From a virus: DNA of 24,066 nucleotides. The DNA lies in IMG/VR virus record IMGVR_UViG_3300025000_000416, positions 1-24,066 of that record; one strand, 5' to 3'. Made by a program: the position numbers and the translations under genes. The notes under the pieces are model-generated. The model ran no database searches, was not told the DNA's origin, and saw nothing but the letters and a program-made list of their open reading frames with translations. Below, one piece after another: positions 766 through 19,624 of the stretch (within the stretch, counting starts at the first letter, position 1; each line of letters starts with the position of its first letter).

Positions 766-905
766 ATACATACATAATTTATAACTCTACGTTTCATTCC
801 TTGTTCATCGTGTTCTTTTTCGCAATATTGCTATTGCTACTCAAGTTACTTAACACTCCAAAGGCTTAAACTCCTCGGCAACGTCCGAGTACATAATATT
901 AACTT
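737..905 (-). ncRNA. Probable TnpB guide RNA (omegaRNA/reRNA) scaffold
   Basis: In TnpB systems the guide RNA covers the end of tnpB and the non-coding right end, and its guide is the flanking DNA just outside. Here about 165 nt separate the tnpB stop from the right end. They contain a tight hairpin at 874-889 (CTCGG, loop ACGTTG, CCGAG) followed by GAGTTTAAGCC, a layout typical of these scaffolds, and a 10-bp palindrome (GCAATATTGC). The guide would be the bases on the minus strand running down from 736. Limits of the RNA are estimates; function is inferred from family knowledge. Confidence 0.65.
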
Positions 906-2094
906 AACTAACCTTAAATATCTTATACTTATCAGTATCTCTTAAATTTAATGATGCATTTAAATCTCTATCTAAAATACTACCACAATTAGTACAAATC
1001 CATTCTCTATCGCTCAATTTCAACAACCTATTTACATTTCCACAATCGTGACAGGTTTTAGAACTTGGATACCATCTATCTACAATTCTTATCTCAATAT
1101 GATTCCATAATCCTTTATACTTAATCTGTCTTCCAAACTCATATAGACTTTGTTGCTGAATTGCTTTAGATAAATGTTTATTCTTCATCATTCCTTGAAT
1201 GTTTAAATCCTCTAACGACACATAAGATGGTTTGGTTTTTACTATCTCAGTAGTCGTTTGTTGAGTGTAATTATCTCTAACACCATTAAGTTTATGTTGA
1301 ACTGATTTTATCTTAAGTTCTAATTTGATGATATTCTTGGTTTTGATATACTTTAATCCATCACGATTATCTTCATATTTTCTAGAAACTTGTCTTTGAA
1401 ATCTCTTCTTTTGTTTTTCTAATCGTCTCATCTTTTTAATCTTATTAATATTACCATAAGTTTTTCCATCTGAACATATTGCTAAATCTTTAATTCCTAA
1501 ATCAATACCAATTCCTTTATTTAATGGTGTTTCAATGCTATTTGGATACTCTATCCCAACAGAAATCCACCAATTTAATCCGTCGAATGAGATCCTTGGA
1601 TTAATGTACTTAACATCTTTACCAAAAGGAATTCTATTATGTTCAGCCAATCTTACCCAATTTAACTGTTGTTTGTTTCCTTTTTTACTTTTAGCAAGTC
1701 CTTCAAATTTAACATGAGTAGATGTAAATTGGATTTTTACATTATCTTGATAGAATTTAGGAGGAGATTTCTTTCGAGTTTTGAATTGAGGGAATTTTGC
1801 TTGACCTTTAAAGAACCTTTGATAAGCTGTGCAAGCGTCTTTAATAGCTTGTTTTGGTACATTATTAGAAATACTGTTCAACCAACCAAATTCATCTTTT
1901 TTCTTCAATTGAGTTAATTCTTTTCTGAGATCATTATCAGAAATAAATTTCCCACCATTAGCATAATTCTCTTTTTCTCTACCTAACGCCCAATTAAAGG
2001 CCCATCGAGCAGTTCCAGCATTTTGAAACATTAATGTATTTTGCTTATTGTTCGGTACAAGCATTATCTTAATTCCCTTGATCAATTTCCTCAT
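904..2094 (-). CDS. tnpB: TnpB RNA-guided nuclease (IS607 accessory protein)
   Basis: The 396-aa protein has the full TnpB layout. An N-terminal helical/WED-like part begins KGIKIMLVPN. The RuvC-like triad has Asp198 in GIDLGIKDLA, Glu295 in SLEDLNIQGM and Asp377 in LDRDLNASLNL. A zinc finger with Cys348, 351, 367 and 370 sits between the last two. All catalytic and zinc residues are present and the length is normal, so it is likely active. TnpB proteins cut DNA guided by RNA from the element's right end, which favours keeping the transposon at its site. It overlaps tnpA by 26 bp and is probably translated by coupling. The ATG lies almost on top of an AAGGAG; a TTG three codons on (2085) has better spacing and may be the real start. 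Confidence 0.95.
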   Translation of the reverse strand: MRKLIKGIKIMLVPNNKQNTLMFQNAGTARWAFNWALGREKENYANGGKFISDNDLRKELTQLKKKDEFGWLNSISNNVPKQAIKDACTAYQRFFKGQAKFPQFKTRKKSPPKFYQDNVKIQFTSTHVKFEGLAKSKKGNKQQLNWVRLAEHNRIPFGKDVKYINPRISFDGLNWWISVGIEYPNSIETPLNKGIGIDLGIKDLAICSDGKTYGNINKIKKMRRLEKQKKRFQRQVSRKYEDNRDGLKYIKTKNIIKLELKIKSVQHKLNGVRDNYTQQTTTEIVKTKPSYVSLEDLNIQGMMKNKHLSKAIQQQSLYEFGRQIKYKGLWNHIEIRIVDRWYPSSKTCHDCGNVNRLLKLSDREWICTNCGSILDRDLNASLNLRDTDKYKIFKVS

Positions 2095-2704
2095 CTCCTT
2101 CCTTAATTAAATCGTCAATCATTTTTCTAGTCCTATTAGCTCTTTTCCCTTGAAGTCTACAACTGAATACAGTAATGATTTGGATTAAATCTTCTACCAA
2201 TTCTTCTTGTTGTGTCTTTTCTGTACTATCCAATATTTCAATTTCACAACCATTGAGATTTGCCATATATTCAATTAGTTCAAAGCCAAATCTAAGAAGT
2301 CTATCTTTGTACAAGATAATTATTTTATCTACTTCTTTATTATTGATTTTCTTTAATAATTCCCTTAAACCCTTTTTCTTGTAATTTATACCACTTCCAA
2401 TGTCTGTGATAATTTCATATGGTTTGTTTAGAGATTCTAAATACTTTGTTAGGTTATCCACTTGTCTTTGTAAATCGTCTTTTTGTTTATTAGAAGAAAC
2501 TCTACAATATCCAACTATAAGTTTAGGCTTCTCTAAATCATCTTCAATATTTAAAACCTCTTTTAATTGCTTATGAGAATAATATCTATAACCATTTGCT
2601 CCAGTATGATTAGGAGTTAGTTTACCACTTTTATCCCAATTTCTAAGAGTTTGTGGAGTTCTAGATATTAACTTTGAAAATTCATGTATGCTGTAATACT
2701 TCAT
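2069..2704 (-). CDS. tnpA: IS607-family serine recombinase (transposase)
   Basis: This protein catalyses excision and insertion of the element. Residues about 1-50 form a MerR-like helix-turn-helix (YYSIHEFSKL, then TPQTLRNWD and GYRYYS), which binds DNA. Residues from about 60 form the small serine-recombinase catalytic domain, with GYCRVSSNKQKDDLQRQ carrying the nucleophilic serine and KDRLLRFGFEL carrying conserved arginines. The frame is open to a GTG at 2716, but that GTG is part of the ribosome binding site AAGAGGTG. The ATG at 2702-2704, 9 nt downstream, is the better start and gives 211 aa. It overlaps tnpB. The domain order and length are normal for the family. Confidence 0.95.
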   Translation of the reverse strand: MKYYSIHEFSKLISRTPQTLRNWDKSGKLTPNHTGANGYRYYSHKQLKEVLNIEDDLEKPKLIVGYCRVSSNKQKDDLQRQVDNLTKYLESLNKPYEIITDIGSGINYKKKGLRELLKKINNKEVDKIIILYKDRLLRFGFELIEYMANLNGCEIEILDSTEKTQQEELVEDLIQIITVFSCRLQGKRANRTRKMIDDLIKEGDEEIDQGN

Positions 2705-2726
2705 TTGTATTTTCACCTCTTAATAT

Positions 2727-3910: not shown

Positions 3911-4840
3911 TTAGTCAGTAATTTCAACCCGATACCCATACAAAGCTTTATATAGTTCTTCAGGAATATATTCTTTGTATCTATCTGCTATTTCTTTTAT
4001 ATGAGATTCCTTAAACTTCTTATATGCTAGATACGCATCTTCTGGATTATTATAACCACCTAACCATTTATTCTTTCTAGTTCCATTATCTGTAATATAA
4101 GAACATTGTGCTCTATATTCTTGATCTCTTTCGTGCCAGTATACTCCTATTGGTAAGTTTCCTCTAGATTTATCTGCTTTTACGAATAATGTGTTTATTG
4201 GTTGTGGAACAAATACGCAAACATCTGGATTATATGTTTTATTTCCTTTAAGTAGGATATCTTTATCTAATTCCATTCTTATATTTTGTGTTATGTAATA
4301 ATTTTCTTCTGCCCATTTAGCAAAGTTTTGATAATTATACCATTCTTCATAAATTGTTACATCTGCATAAGTACGATGAAAGTTATTATTTTTTATGTTA
4401 ACTCTTTCTATCATTGCTCGCCAATGATCATACCATATATCATCACAAGTATATTTCCCTTCACCTAAAAATCCAATACCATATAATGTTTTGCAGTAAG
4501 GCGATTTTATATTCCCTTTGTCAAAAGTGCTCCACGTAGTTACATCTTTATGACCATTGTCGAATTGTATATGTACATTACTACTATTTATATAATTTAT
4601 TACTTTAATTTTACTTCCATAACTATTACTTCTTACTTCGCCTATTCTTTTTGAATAATCAACATGATCCACTGCTCCTAATTGAAAGTCTTTATACGCT
4701 ACATTATTCCTAATATATCCACTTTCAAATTGGACATTCATATTAGTAGCACCTGTGTAATTAATTATTTTCATTTTATGTCCCTTATTGTTTATTCCTT
4801 CTTCTCCAACTCTATATGATTTTATTGTTATAACTTTCAC
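3911..4840 (-). CDS. HNH-type homing endonuclease with AP2 DNA-binding domain
   Basis: The 309-aa protein has three parts. Residues about 20-112 hold two copies of a beta-rich module (KIINYTGATNMNVQFESGY at 24-42 and KVINYINSSNVHIQFDNGH at 79-97). Residues about 130-220 match phage HNH-like endonucleases, with W-x-x-M-x-x-R spacing, ADVTIYEEW and LDKDILLKGNKTYNPDVCVF. Residues about 228-275 are an AP2 domain (IGVYWHERDQEYRAQ ... KWLGGYNNPEDAYLAY). Free-standing enzymes of this kind cut DNA and spread their own gene. It starts with GTG, 6 bp after the helicase gene, and is the last gene before the 3852-3880 promoter, so it looks like a selfish insertion at the end of the replication operon. 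Confidence 0.88.
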   Translation of the reverse strand: MKVITIKSYRVGEEGINNKGHKMKIINYTGATNMNVQFESGYIRNNVAYKDFQLGAVDHVDYSKRIGEVRSNSYGSKIKVINYINSSNVHIQFDNGHKDVTTWSTFDKGNIKSPYCKTLYGIGFLGEGKYTCDDIWYDHWRAMIERVNIKNNNFHRTYADVTIYEEWYNYQNFAKWAEENYYITQNIRMELDKDILLKGNKTYNPDVCVFVPQPINTLFVKADKSRGNLPIGVYWHERDQEYRAQCSYITDNGTRKNKWLGGYNNPEDAYLAYKKFKESHIKEIADRYKEYIPEELYKALYGYRVEITD

Positions 4841-10646: not shown

Positions 10647-11507
10647 TTAACCTCCATTTATTTGTGTTTTAAGCATTAAGAATCTATCATATTTTCTTTG
10701 TAAAAATCTTTCCGTATCTTCGTACAAATACTTCATTATTTTGTATACTTGTTGATTACCACCATAATCAAGACTTTCAACAATATCATAACTATGCCTT
10801 TTATAAGTATTTGAAATTTTATATATTGTTTCATTATTATATAGATGTTCCATAATAAAACTTAGCATCAATTTTGTACTTGTAATTCTAAATTTAAAAT
10901 CAAATCCACTATTTTTATCTTTTGACATTGAAATACTTCCATTGCCATCAAAATATCCTAATATAAAATATTTTTCATATTCTTTAGGTAAATTTTTAGG
11001 AGGTTCTTTTACTTGCGACTTATGTTCTACTAGTCCATGATTAACTAAATCACCATATATGGTTTTGCTATTTAAGATAAGTCTGACATATGGTGTTTCT
11101 GAATACCCCTTACCCTTACTAACTTTATAATGTTTTATTTCATGTGTTGATTGAATATCATTTTTGAATTTTAAAAGGTGTTCCTCGTCTTTTTCATGGA
11201 TTGATAAACCAACAAGCCCACTATTATATCTTTCTTTATTCTTAGATATGTATCCATCAGCGTATAAAAATCCTAACCAATAGGCTTTGATTGGATCATT
11301 AATCACTTCAAAATAATTTTCATTAAAAGTATATTTTTTAGAGTTAATAGAATTGCTTCTTCTTTCAATATTGTTATCTTCTAAAGTTTTATATACCCTA
11401 TAATTATTAATGTTTAATTCTTTTGCTATTTTTATAGCAGAACTACCTTCTATGTACGAAGATATTATTTCTTGCCTTAAAATATCTTCGTTATTATAAA
11501 TATTCAT
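10647..11507 (-). CDS. Free-standing LAGLIDADG homing endonuclease
   Basis: 286 aa. The N-terminal 50 residues look like a helix-turn-helix (IKIAKELNINNYRVYKTLEDN). Two LAGLIDADG motifs follow, WLGFLYADGYIS (77-88, Asp84) and FILGYFDGNGSIS (181-193, Asp187), so one chain carries both active sites. Such enzymes cut a specific site in alleles lacking the gene and so spread. It sits flush between the RecJ-like gene (TAG then ATG, no gap) and dnaE (2 bp). Both neighbours are intact and there is no room for an intron, so it is an intergenic, free-standing copy. Its last codons (GGA GGT TAA) supply the ribosome binding site of dnaE, which keeps the polymerase expressed. Confidence 0.9.
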   Translation of the reverse strand: MNIYNNEDILRQEIISSYIEGSSAIKIAKELNINNYRVYKTLEDNNIERRSNSINSKKYTFNENYFEVINDPIKAYWLGFLYADGYISKNKERYNSGLVGLSIHEKDEEHLLKFKNDIQSTHEIKHYKVSKGKGYSETPYVRLILNSKTIYGDLVNHGLVEHKSQVKEPPKNLPKEYEKYFILGYFDGNGSISMSKDKNSGFDFKFRITSTKLMLSFIMEHLYNNETIYKISNTYKRHSYDIVESLDYGGNQQVYKIMKYLYEDTERFLQRKYDRFLMLKTQINGG

Positions 11508-16526: not shown

Positions 16527-16559
16527 AAATGAGGAATGATAAAAAACCATTCCTCATTT
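16527..16559 (+). terminator. 12-bp perfect hairpin with U-tract on plus strand
   Basis: Stem 16527-16538 pairs perfectly with 16548-16559, loop 9 nt. Read on the plus strand it is followed by TTTTTACTATTCTT, the form of an intrinsic terminator. On the minus strand, the direction of the operon, the stem is followed only by TTTGAGC and would terminate weakly. It may block antisense transcription or act as a partial attenuator or RNA-processing site between the RecA-like gene and the downstream genes. Confidence 0.6.
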
Positions 16560-16580: not shown

Positions 16581-17759
16581 TTAATTCTTTGCCATAATAT
16601 CATATATTTTTTGAAGTGTCTCAATTGACAAATCTGGCGTAAATTGAATTGGTAAACCTTCATTTTCTAATAACGGTTTCATCGCTTTACGTTTTGTGGG
16701 AGGCATAGATTCTTTAAGTTTCTCAATAGTTTTAATTAAAGACTCTACTGTAACATTAGCATTATCAGTTGTTGTAGTATTTTGATTTGTATTATTAGGA
16801 ACATCAGCATATCCTGCAATTTCTTTATAAGTTTCTTCATTTTTCTTAACAGTATCACTAACTTTCCCTTGAGACATTCCTACATTTTTACCCCTATTTT
16901 TATTACTATCAATGACATCTTGCCATAATGCTACTGATGGATTTTTAACAATCTCATTAGGTTTATATTTCCCTGTCCTATCCTTTTGTTCAATTACAGC
17001 ATAAATTTCACCATCTGCATCCGTCATATTATGAATAACTGTAAATACTTCATATTGAATAAAATCCCATGACTCAGGAACTTCATAACCCATATATGTA
17101 AGAACCATTTCTCCTTTATTATTCTTAACCATTTCCTTCTTATCTTTTGCTCTACCAGTGATAGCAACATATTTATCAGTATTTGTAATAAGATTACGAA
17201 CAAGCGACTTGCCACTTGATTTAATCTTATTATGATCTTTAAATTCAAGGCCAGCAGTACCTACCATTACTTCTTTTTCGTCAGAGGTTTTACCTTGTAA
17301 TTCTGCTCTGATGGCTGCCCTTTTTTCAGAAAGATTAATTGCCGCATCTGAAACATTATCTGCAACAACAGTAATTCCGTCAATTACAATAGCGTCTGCA
17401 ATAAATTGATTACCATCAGCATCTAATACAACTTCTTCTGTTTCAATACCATCTTCGTCTAAATGATATAATGGTTCATTATTAATAACTTTATCGCAAT
17501 AATATCTAATCTCTGAAAGTGCAGATGTGTAAACTAGATAAATATTCTCAAGATTTACACCTTCTTCTTCTAACCTATCTAATCCAAAACCATCAATACT
17601 ACCTGTCTCGCAGTCAATATACAGTACACGTAAAGGTTTACCTTCTTTATTCATTTTAGCAAAGTCTGCTACACAGTTACTTTTTCGGACACCATGCTTA
17701 CCGTAAACAAAATATTTTAGACCTTTTTCCACATTACTTCCAGTTCTTGCTCTTGCCAT
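16581..17759 (-). CDS. RecA/Sak4-like ATPase with altered P-loop
   Basis: 392 aa from the ATG at 17757-17759 (MARARTGSNVEKG). The frame is open 66 codons further up, but that stretch overlaps the SSB-like gene and looks random. The N-terminus reads LKYFVYGKHGVRKSN, the position of the Walker A loop (20-27), followed by VLYIDCETG and Walker B ADAIVIDGI (Asp127). This is the architecture of phage AAA_24/Sak4-type ATPases, which act in single-strand annealing or recombination with an SSB. The second glycine of GxxxxGKS is Arg25 (codon CGA) here. The C-terminal region is hydrophilic, with a Thr/Asn-rich linker and a final helical domain. Its gene follows the SSB-like gene, as in phages with Sak4. 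Confidence 0.82.
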   Translation of the reverse strand: MARARTGSNVEKGLKYFVYGKHGVRKSNCVADFAKMNKEGKPLRVLYIDCETGSIDGFGLDRLEEEGVNLENIYLVYTSALSEIRYYCDKVINNEPLYHLDEDGIETEEVVLDADGNQFIADAIVIDGITVVADNVSDAAINLSEKRAAIRAELQGKTSDEKEVMVGTAGLEFKDHNKIKSSGKSLVRNLITNTDKYVAITGRAKDKKEMVKNNKGEMVLTYMGYEVPESWDFIQYEVFTVIHNMTDADGEIYAVIEQKDRTGKYKPNEIVKNPSVALWQDVIDSNKNRGKNVGMSQGKVSDTVKKNEETYKEIAGYADVPNNTNQNTTTTDNANVTVESLIKTIEKLKESMPPTKRKAMKPLLENEGLPIQFTPDLSIETLQKIYDIMAKN

Positions 17760-17798
17760 ATTATTAAATCCAACCCTTCTATTTTTATTTATTATTTT

Positions 17799-17828
17799 GT
17801 ATGGGGTGGCGTTTTGAACCACCCATAC
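17799..17828 (-). promoter_or_regulatory. GC-rich hairpin between SSB-like and RecA-like genes
   Basis: On the minus strand GTATGGGTGG (17819-17828) pairs with CCACCCCATAC (17799-17809) with one bulged base and a 9-nt loop. It stands out in very AT-rich DNA. No U-run follows it in the operon direction, so it is more likely an mRNA-stability, processing or attenuation element than a full terminator. Confidence 0.5.
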
Positions 17829-17853
17829 TTTTGAACTATTGTTAATTAAGTGA

Positions 17854-18894
17854 TTACCATTCCATTTCTGGGTCTTCAGATTCTCCTTTATTTCCTTCGT
17901 CACCATTCCAATTGTCATTACCAAACTCATCTTGAGCTTTAAATGCTTTAATAACAATATCTTCGGTATAAGTTTTTGTATCTATATCTTTTGTATCGAT
18001 TCCAGTAATTTCAAATTCAAATTTACGAGGACTACCAACTTGATTAAATGGATCTGCATCCCCACCCCAATCTTCTGGACTATTATTTTCAACCTCTTCT
18101 GCCATACGTTTATTATTTATTTTACCATGAATTGAAATTCTATTATATGGTTTTAAATGTTTTCTAAAATTTGATGCTAACGTTTTGTTTCTAATAACAA
18201 ATTCAATATCTTCAAGTGTTTTATATGTAACAATTTTTGCCTTAATAATCCATCTTGGATCATCATTATCAGGTTTATTATTTTTTTGAGCTTGAACAAT
18301 CTCCATAAATAAACACTTTTGTTTAAAATTACTTTCTTCCTTAAAATCTTCTTGCGCAAAGTCAACAACCGAATTGTAAATCTTTTTAATATTTAATCTT
18401 TTGAATCTACTTTTACCATTTTCTCCTTCCATTGAACTAAATTCTAATTCGCCAACTATTAATACAGGCATATCATCCTTCAATCTTTTAGAAAGAAGTT
18501 CAGCAGCATCATAATCCCACATACTTTTAGTAATGTTTTTATTTTTATCATCTTTGTCTAGGCCGATAATTACACCAATAGGTTCAAATCCCTCTTCTTT
18601 AAAATTTATACGTTGCCCCCAAGATATTTTCTTACTAATTCCTTGTTCTCCTTTTGTCTCAGATTTTTTATAAAACCATGCATCTTCTTTTTCTGAGTCT
18701 GAAATTTGAACATAAACTTCATTATCTTCTGATGTTTTTACACCAAAATTAACCGTATTTCTCTCAAAACCATTTTTTTGTGGTTTTTGTTTAAAGAAAT
18801 TCTCACCTTTTTTTGTGCCAGTTACTAAACCTCTAGCTTTAAATTGTCCCTCTGTGAGTGGTAGTCCATGTTCACCAGTTTTAACTTTTGCCAT
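17854..18894 (-). CDS. Large single-stranded DNA-binding-like protein
   Basis: 346 aa from the ATG at 18892-18894, chosen because AGAAGGA lies 9 nt upstream; the frame is also open to a TTG at 18915 that overlaps this site. The protein starts MAKVKTGEHGLPLTEGQFKA, has two beta-rich halves (about 25-175 and 195-315) suggestive of tandem OB folds, and ends in an acidic tail (NKGESEDPEMEW). An acidic tail with a hydrophobic or aromatic end is typical of SSBs, where it recruits partner proteins. Its position directly before the RecA-like ATPase supports this. The SSB assignment is inference from these features; I do not recognise the exact family. Its translation start is covered by an inverted repeat (18904-18972). 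Confidence 0.68.
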   Translation of the reverse strand: MAKVKTGEHGLPLTEGQFKARGLVTGTKKGENFFKQKPQKNGFERNTVNFGVKTSEDNEVYVQISDSEKEDAWFYKKSETKGEQGISKKISWGQRINFKEEGFEPIGVIIGLDKDDKNKNITKSMWDYDAAELLSKRLKDDMPVLIVGELEFSSMEGENGKSRFKRLNIKKIYNSVVDFAQEDFKEESNFKQKCLFMEIVQAQKNNKPDNDDPRWIIKAKIVTYKTLEDIEFVIRNKTLASNFRKHLKPYNRISIHGKINNKRMAEEVENNSPEDWGGDADPFNQVGSPRKFEFEITGIDTKDIDTKTYTEDIVIKAFKAQDEFGNDNWNGDEGNKGESEDPEMEW

Positions 18895-18903
18895 ATTATG
18901 TAT

Positions 18904-18972
18904 TCCTTCTTTCAATATTTTTATTTTATTATTTAATGCACATGATCTTTTAAAATATAATTGAAAGAAGGA
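18904..18972 (-). promoter_or_regulatory. RBS-sequestering 13-bp stem before the SSB-like gene
   Basis: Positions 18904-18916 (ATTGAAAGAAGGA on the minus strand, containing the ribosome binding site) are perfectly complementary to 18960-18972. In mRNA the 13-bp stem with a 43-nt loop would hide the binding site of the SSB-like gene. The upstream arm lies within the probable 31-codon leader ORF, so a ribosome translating the leader would open the stem. Confidence 0.65.
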
Positions 18973-19028
18973 GGTGGTTTGCTTCTACAGATAGGAACTT
19001 GGCCCCATGCTTTTGTTTTAATAAGCAT
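18933..19028 (-). CDS. Probable 31-aa leader peptide
   Basis: ATG at 19026-19028 with AGAAAGGA just upstream (short spacing), ending in TAA at 18933-18935. The product (MLIKTKAWGQVPICRSKPPP...) has three consecutive prolines just before the codons that form the upstream arm of the stem at 18960-18972. Its size, and the placement of the stop inside the loop, suit a regulatory leader more than a functional protein, but no conservation evidence is available here. Confidence 0.45.
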   Translation of the reverse strand: MLIKTKAWGQVPICRSKPPPSFNYILKDHVH

Positions 19029-19048
19029 CTTTCCTTTCTATTATTATT

Positions 19049-19624
19049 TTATCTCACAACCTTAACATCAAAATTAAACTCTAAACATTTTCTACTGGCT
19101 AAATAATCACACCAATGTACAAAATGTTGTATTTTATTTTTTGGCGTAGGTAAGATTTTTTGTTTTGTTTTATAATCAAATGCAAATTGACCCATATGTG
19201 ACTCAATATTGCCAATAATCATATTTAGCGTTTCTTCATCAATACAACTATTAATGTCTGTGTTAGTTCTAAGCATATTAGTAACAATTAAAGGATGCTC
19301 AGTAACAGTGTGAGAACTATTATTTATACCCGATTTAAATCCATCGTGTAATATCAGTGATGAAACAATCATGTCTTTATCATCTTCTGTATACTTAAAA
19401 ATATCTAATCTAAACATTTCTACTGCAATTCTTACTGCCGATTTGGTATGCCTCACTAAACCTCCCTCTCCTAAAGCATATTGTGGATGATATTTACCAG
19501 ACGAACTGGCAGGAATTGAGAAGAAATACTCTGGTAAGTTATTTAATGCTTTTTCTGTGAATTCTTTGATCTTAGGATTTAATATGTATGATAGTTCTGT
19601 TTTGAATATATCTAATCTATCCAC
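19049..19624 (-). CDS. HD-domain protein (putative nucleotide or RNA phosphohydrolase)
   Basis: 191 aa starting with GTG (19622-19624) behind AAAGGAG. HD-type metal ligands are His59 (GGLVRHTKSAV), His93-Asp94 (LILHDGF) and later His110 (TEHP) and the His in ESHMGQF. The pattern resembles the HD domain of YhaM-like exoribonucleases, without their OB domain. HD proteins cleave phosphate esters of nucleotides or nucleic acids; the substrate here is unknown. It is the first gene after the 19655-19683 promoter and heads the replication operon. Confidence 0.85.
   Translation of the reverse strand: MDRLDIFKTELSYILNPKIKEFTEKALNNLPEYFFSIPASSSGKYHPQYALGEGGLVRHTKSAVRIAVEMFRLDIFKYTEDDKDMIVSSLILHDGFKSGINNSSHTVTEHPLIVTNMLRTNTDINSCIDEETLNMIIGNIESHMGQFAFDYKTKQKILPTPKNKIQHFVHWCDYLASRKCLEFNFDVKVVR

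Follow-up and report, generated by a model that had tools for sequence, protein, structure and literature searches.

How is a phage SSB-like gene translated when its ribosome binding site (RBS) is buried in a stem whose other strand lies within a short ORF directly upstream? This question is raised by the window, the stretch of 24,066 nucleotides of viral record IMGVR_UViG_3300025000_000416 that was analyzed here at its full length. A first-pass annotation made from the sequence alone had described a perfect 13-bp stem over the RBS of the SSB-like gene, with the complementary arm inside the upstream ORF after three Pro codons and the stop codon of this ORF in the loop. The arrangement proved real in every part: the Shine-Dalgarno (SD) of ssb, AGAAGG, was found inside the 3' arm, the 5' arm begins within the three Pro codons, and the TAA of the leader lies between the arms (Table 1). 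The arms are perfectly complementary over 13 bp and enclose a loop of 43 nt, and folding of the minus strand gave a minimum free energy of -31.0 kcal/mol (z = -2.0). In Markov-simulated windows, inverted repeats this perfect (13 bp, loops of up to 120 nt) were expected 0.15 times per window, and since such arms held only 0.026% of the bases, chance coverage of a given SD is very unlikely. Folding gave the ssb SD an unpaired probability of 0.00, as compared to 0.37-0.95 at 15 further starts in the window. No match to this region was obtained in Rfam at E up to 1.

Table 1. Features around the ssb leader of the window, and leaders of related phages (peptides run to the stop codon)
Feature	Position	Strand	Sequence	Remarks
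5' arm of stem	18972-18960	minus	TCCTTCTTTCAAT	Overlaps last two Pro codons and Ser-Phe-Asn of leader
3' arm of stem	18916-18904	minus	ATTGAAAGAAGGA	Inverted repeat; contains ssb SD AGAAGG (18910-18905)
Leader ORF read from in-frame ATG	19028-18933	minus	MLIKTKAWGQVPICRSKPPPSFNYILKDHVH	First-pass annotation
Leader ORF as probably translated	18933..19022	minus	(f)MKTKAWGQVPICRSKPPPSFNYILKDHVH	AUU 19022-19020 to TAA 18935-18933
PPP codons	18969..18977	minus	CCA CCT CCT	Proposed ribosome pause/arrest site
Extended SD of leader	19032..19039	minus	AGAAAGGA	8-nt match to anti-SD complement
In-frame ATG	19026..19028	minus		Probably not the start
SSB-like gene	17857..18894	minus		346 aa, PHROG 2367; start ATG 18894-18892, stop codon 17854-17856
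RecA/Sak4-like ATPase gene	16584..17759	minus		PHROG 1366; second in ssb cassette, downstream of ssb; P-loop-like
Gene upstream of leader	19049..19624	minus		PHROG 5889; HD-type by eye
Leader, Geobacillus virus E3			...IKRIGRDPPECRRCLK	RDPP; no CDS annotated there
Leaders, L014, L016, L017			...IKTLGRDPPYFIKSN	RDPP (L017)
Leader, Brevibacillus L012			MTAMRSPPCTSYE	RSPP
Leader, L124			MTDMRAPPKCK	RAPP
Leader, L118			...LIGRSPPK	RSPP
Leader, L023			VRSPPSNS	RSPP
Leader, L093 (=L173)			...IKNKLGLRVPIKNLREPPIESF	REPP
Leader, L130			...KRGVPPPIAI	
Leader, L145			...RPIKRCNPPPIL	
Leader, L188			MISRLRSPPMSLIN	RSPP; precedes distant SSB homologue in Bacilli genome

The name SSB-like is justified by family assignment and modeled structure. 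The product belongs to PHROG 2367, its match to PF00436 (SSB; E 4e-5, 24 bits) falls slightly below the cut-off of 26, and the best-ranking PDB matches of its AlphaFold model (30 sequences, mean pLDDT 84.7) were the two-OB-fold SSBs of D. radiodurans and T. aquaticus (E 2e-8). The predicted OB-fold domain is accompanied by an acidic C-terminal tail, as in the bacterial SSB family; this tail is DDLPF/W in relatives and DPEMEW in the window protein. The RecA/Sak4-like ATPase has invariant P-loop-like positions G20, G23, K26, and S27. The PHROG 5889 gene had no match in Pfam; in the window clade, it and the leader block are physically linked. The gap between ssb and the recA-like gene holds a bulged hairpin (GTATGGGTGG...CCACCCCATAC, about 17790-17830, minus strand), a possible second control element or processing site, and 3' of the recA-like gene we observed a perfect, terminator-like 12-bp stem (AAATGAGGAATG / CATTCCTCATTT, 16527-16559, minus strand). 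Elsewhere in the window, an Rfam RAGATH-18 RNA (797-864, minus strand) immediately follows genes that resemble TnpB and a serine recombinase, with ORFs at 904-2094 and 2069-2716 (both on the minus strand), which marks an IS607-type element; the RNA is probably its guide RNA.

The first-pass annotation had read the leader as a 31-codon ORF. The ORF upstream of ssb stands, but its ATG start is probably wrong, judging from SD spacing and from relatives (designated here by L numbers). Specifically, the aligned SD of the window stands 7 nt from the ATT and about 1 nt from the ATG, so that the leader probably starts at the former. The SD is likewise 7 nt from a conserved Ile codon in L162, L164-L166, L168, L170-L173, and L176, 6 nt in L163 and 8 nt in E3, and the ATG starts of the L012 and L124 leaders also have a spacing of 7 nt. 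No in-frame ATG, GTG, or TTG occurs there in L164, L172, L173, and L176, in which the ATG is absent or out of frame. The conserved Ile start position is occupied exactly by TTG in L177 and L178, and by AUU, AUA, or AUC in the others. Over 4,983 bp, the sole difference between the window and L004 falls between the ATG and the ATT. A GTG in E3 was discarded as a start since it lies inside the SD, and AUA was preferred. From these comparisons, the leader likely starts at an AUU, AUA, or AUC codon 6-8 nt from an extended SD, and not at ATG. In S. aureus, initiation at AUU or AUA behind extended SDs reaches about 10-30% of AUG levels (PMC13009471). An extended SD followed by a non-canonical start codon is also found in infC and in S. 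aureus cvfC1 and ccpN (PMC13009471); however, those are protein genes, whereas in the phages the weak codon would determine the input to a regulatory leader.

To follow the leader in other genomes, SSB homologues were gathered by SSB or RecA similarity without using the leader itself, yielding 49 upstream regions. In this homology-selected set, short unannotated Pro-Pro ORFs were found upstream of several SSB homologues: ORFs with RxPP occurred 7 times (0.13 expected in shuffles, maximum 1), and ORFs with PP 10 times (1.6 expected). Such Pro-Pro leaders precede the same gene family, PHROG 2367, in related phages and range from 8 to 36 codons. Close relatives keep IKTKAWGQVPICR..PP or IKNKxKYRVPIK..PP at the codon level. 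Searched as a degenerate DNA pattern, the window-type peptide matched 16 viral contigs, which are mostly metagenomic and in several cases from related samples, making them less independent than their count suggests. A query devoid of prolines (AWGQVPIC only) retrieved 12 contigs, and all 12 matches were ssb leaders with PP 5 or 6 codons further on. The earlier idea that the Pro codons slow ribosomes gains from this comparison, in that PP is kept in every relative retrieved with the PP-free query. Each whole record that could be searched had the window-type motif a single time, and without exception the leaders preceded an SSB gene of PHROG 2367 or a similar kind. Leaders related to that of the window recur across many Gram-positive-type phages. 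KYRVPIK matches in L179 and L180 were excluded as leaders because they lack PP and a stop precedes the motif. The strict window-type pattern had no match in 398 Bacillota genomes, NCBIfam had none for the leader peptides, and neither DNA similarity within the phage collection nor tblastn of the peptide gave anything useful, the leader being too short for both.

Other arrangements were also observed upstream of ssb. L102 carries a different small ORF (MVGVRAPTEKSFKKVLHYCTRC...) that overlaps the ssb start and has a CxxC motif. Bacillus phages of another branch (L009, L010, L031, L040, L042, and L045) have a promoter, then a hairpin of variable sequence (GGGAG..CTCCC), and then TTCACCATAAA. This promoter plus hairpin (GGGAG...CTCCCTTCACCAT) before the ssb-like gene is a second kind of structured ssb leader, and it is not homologous to that of the window.

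Patterns of substitution indicate that the leader is translated and that purifying selection acts in its frame only. Among nine window-type leaders, pN/pS over the IK...PP stretch was 0.34 in the leader frame, against 1.04 and 3.23 in the two others, and the variable positions in the first 13 codons comprised 8 third, 2 first, and 1 second positions. Synonymous changes included Arg as AGA, CGC, or CGT and Ser as AGC, AGT, or TCA. Beyond PP-Ser-Phe-Asn, frame and length vary freely among relatives (versions of 25-31 codons), and therefore selection on the peptide ends at the prolines.

The PP codons and the bases that follow them are complementary to the ssb RBS of the same phage in 17 of the 22 leaders (p<=0.03), among them L124, whose duplex is interrupted. 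The duplex spans 13 bp in the window and 18 bp in L162, and re-matched arms were found in L017 (UCCUCCUUAU with AUAAGGAGGA, extended by 3 bp), in L173 (CCUCCUAU with AUGGGAGG), and in L170, where the arm followed a change of the RBS to ATTGGAGG. Covariation of the two arms had been put forward as a check of the stem. Because indels shift the arms in the alignment, partner specificity was assessed by permutation in place of column covariation. Swapping leaders and RBSs between families (one per family) weakened the pairing (p=0.0006), which speaks for partner-specific complementarity, but strong column-wise covariation was not seen in the window clade, as 87 of 500 shuffles reached the observed level in the MAFFT alignment. 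About five or six leaders have no convincing RBS stem (p>0.1: L176, L012, L118, L023, L130, and L145), and that of L124 is weak. The leader is thus more conserved than the stem, which is not universal. Every SD being rich in purines, a certain degree of pairing with CCU Pro codons would arise in any case. The PP could be a mere by-product of an anti-SD arm, but stem-poor leaders keep it (L023 and L118 have RSPP) and differ in the Pro codons they use; conversely, pairing as a mere by-product of the PP codons conflicts with its partner-specific extension beyond the SD core. Both were rejected as sole causes. What the sequences themselves show is the stem, a conserved leader under codon-level selection with its PP motif, the match between each arm and the RBS of its phage, and a non-AUG start position.

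We consider it probable that a cis-acting leader-peptide switch governs how the phage SSB-like gene is translated. The ssb SD would by default be hidden in the stem. Initiation on the leader would take place from the extended SD, probably at the weak AUU start, and the ribosome would then pause or arrest at the consecutive Pro codons, where its footprint would cover the 5' arm, prevent the stem from forming, and allow a second ribosome to load on the ssb SD. The stem would reclose once the ribosome leaves the prolines for the stop codon, or if the leader is untranslated. The modulator, if there is any, might be host EF-P or translation rate, IF3 via the AUU start, or a nascent-chain ligand. 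We infer both that ribosomes pause at the prolines and that the pause raises SSB synthesis; on its own, the PPP of the window may cause only a pause that EF-P relieves.

In freely folded RNA, the ssb SD was closed in the window and in the majority of relatives that have the stem. A ribosome at the prolines was modeled, crudely, by masking the RNA as far as 10 nt beyond the second Pro codon. Under this model the unpaired probability of the window ssb SD changed from 0.00 in free RNA to 0.96, and that of the other window-type and E3-type leaders from 0.00-0.35 to 0.65-0.98, with L176 as the exception (0.47 to 0.79). When the ribosome was placed at the stop codon, the window SD stayed closed (0.00), and the SD was open in several relatives. 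An SD that is closed with the ribosome at the stop and open with it at PP implies that a pause, and not passage, should express the window SSB. The earlier prediction of an ssb site opened by leader translation therefore holds in this model of the window for a ribosome at the prolines but not for one at the stop codon, so that the stall matters; comparatively, it is well supported by the conserved translated leader, by the retained PP, and by arms matched to their own RBS.

The leader also behaves as a movable block. In most window-type phages, the upstream gene and the leader are 85-100% identical (54% in L170), with the identity of the SSB below going down to about 25%. L162 and L172 have SSBs that are 97.5% identical and leaders of different subtypes (AWGQVPIC versus KYRVPIK). 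L114 has an SSB 76-77% identical to that of the window and no leader, and the switch would therefore be dispensable for that gene. These comparisons suggest that the leader is a portable control unit. Very different SSB-RecA cassettes were seen swapped beneath a near-constant upstream-gene/leader block (L162-L176, L114, and the window). In L172, the leader is separated from the PHROG 5889 gene by an HNH-type ORF, and homing-endonuclease-like ORFs are present in the window at 3911-4840 and 10647-11507.

Other explanations of the locus have to be weighed against a pause-dependent switch. Any translation of the leader might transiently melt the stem with no specific pause, in which case the peptide would matter via its RNA and codons only. 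A translated leader with its stop in the loop and the distance to the ssb start (21-68 nt in most leaders, 124 nt in L118) would fit such coupling, but the amino acids before PP are kept through synonymous changes of Arg and Ser codons, leaders without a stem keep PP, and the window SD is still buried with a ribosome at the stop codon; we therefore regard this explanation as unlikely, albeit the most serious of the alternatives. The leader might also be kept mainly as part of a recombination junction for swapping ssb-recA cassettes, given that one upstream block precedes SSB genes of about 25-97% mutual identity. Yet the substitutions are synonymous in pattern, and the leader is kept in contexts as unrelated as E3, Brevibacillus, and L173; both observations need selection on the peptide, which leaves this possibility with hardly any credit.

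Two further alternatives place the activity in a protein, and we judge each of them very improbable. The first-pass annotation had proposed that the SSB-like protein binds its own leader and represses its synthesis as T4 gp32 does, a proposal that gained no support in the analysis. The protein is an SSB by fold, and the loop that it would occupy together with the RBS is AU-rich and largely unstructured; however, the conserved leader peptide would be left unexplained, and the leader is nearly unchanged above SSB proteins of about 25% identity. If the leader were instead a micro-protein acting in trans, with the stem being secondary, its conserved 13-residue core would be accounted for, but not a C-terminal half that is frame-shifted and variable in length among relatives, leaders of just 8-13 aa (L023, L124, and L012), or a location that is always directly 5' of the SSB gene, once per record where checked.

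The switch that we favor has parallels in known systems. In ErmC-type attenuators, a ribosome that stalls on a short leader ORF releases the RBS from sequestration; here, the pause would be at prolines, and we know of no drug inducer for the phage ssb leader. T4 gp32 is likewise a phage SSB gene under translational control, but its control is exerted by protein-operator binding without a leader peptide. By analogy, the window leader would resemble a SecM/ErmC-like switch in which a ribosome paused at prolines unmasks the ssb SD. SecM unmasks the secA SD (PMC10987492) by the logic proposed here, and both systems share a stem hiding a downstream SD that a stalled ribosome would open. As in SecM and RAPP-type systems (ApdA, ApdP, ApcA, and the RQH family; PMC10951233), we found a short, co-oriented, apparently translated uORF directly upstream of the regulated gene, an SD predicted to be sequestered and then freed by a stalled ribosome (unpaired probability 0.00 to 0.96), and, in several relatives, a C-terminal arrest-type motif. 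The present leaders differ in being phage-borne, SSB-controlling, 8-36 codons long, and in many cases started at a non-AUG codon. No N-terminal localization signal was evident by eye in these 8-36-residue leaders and the target is SSB, not sec or yidC, so a Sec-monitoring substrate is not indicated. The mgtQ-mgtB system of Salmonella (PMC8092293) is similar in that a translation event on a small intergenic uORF favors an accessible downstream RBS, but mgtQ is described there as acting via ribosome-destabilizing acidic residues, its Pro codon reportedly not being required. CruR-bfrG (PMC9426467) shares a uORF with a required C-terminal RAPP motif; unlike the phage leader, CruR is a copper-sensing CxxC protein that acts on Rho-dependent termination.

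RAPP is well established as a motif that arrests ribosomes (PMC10951233), whereas RDPP and RSPP permit arrest in part (PMC12992588). The motifs of the distant leaders, namely RAPP (L124), RSPP (L012, L023, L118, and L188), RDPP (E3 and L017), and REPP (L173), thus match or resemble known arrest motifs. The window carries SKPPP, and because its own motif is KPPP, not RxPP, and arrest is only predicted, its leader was not classed among the RAPP arrest peptides. Proteomes of Bacillota are depleted of RxPP, and many Gram-positives, Bacillota among them, have been reported to lack RAPP/RGPP uORFs, in surveys that cover bacterial proteomes without mention of phages (PMC12992588). The first-pass annotation knew of no such leader for this SSB family, and our search of the open-access literature, which leaves subscription journals mostly outside, likewise returned no report of phage or SSB leader peptides.

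More tentatively, these leaders may form a phage-specific, portable arrest-leader family with conserved AUU/AUA/AUC starts that gates SSB, so that SSB output would report the IF3/EF-P state of the host during infection, the same leader being reused over very different SSB-RecA cassettes. Current annotation does not see leaders of this size (about 30 codons or fewer), and at least the E3 record leaves its leader unannotated. Natural AUU- and AUA-started leaders would serve studies of initiation fidelity. Arrest-peptide leaders have so far come from bacterial housekeeping genes (secretion and metal uptake), and the open-access literature searched describes none in phages or for a replication protein. 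A conserved leader would explain how phages tune SSB, which is needed in controlled amounts, and the switch would show phages using paused ribosomes as switches.
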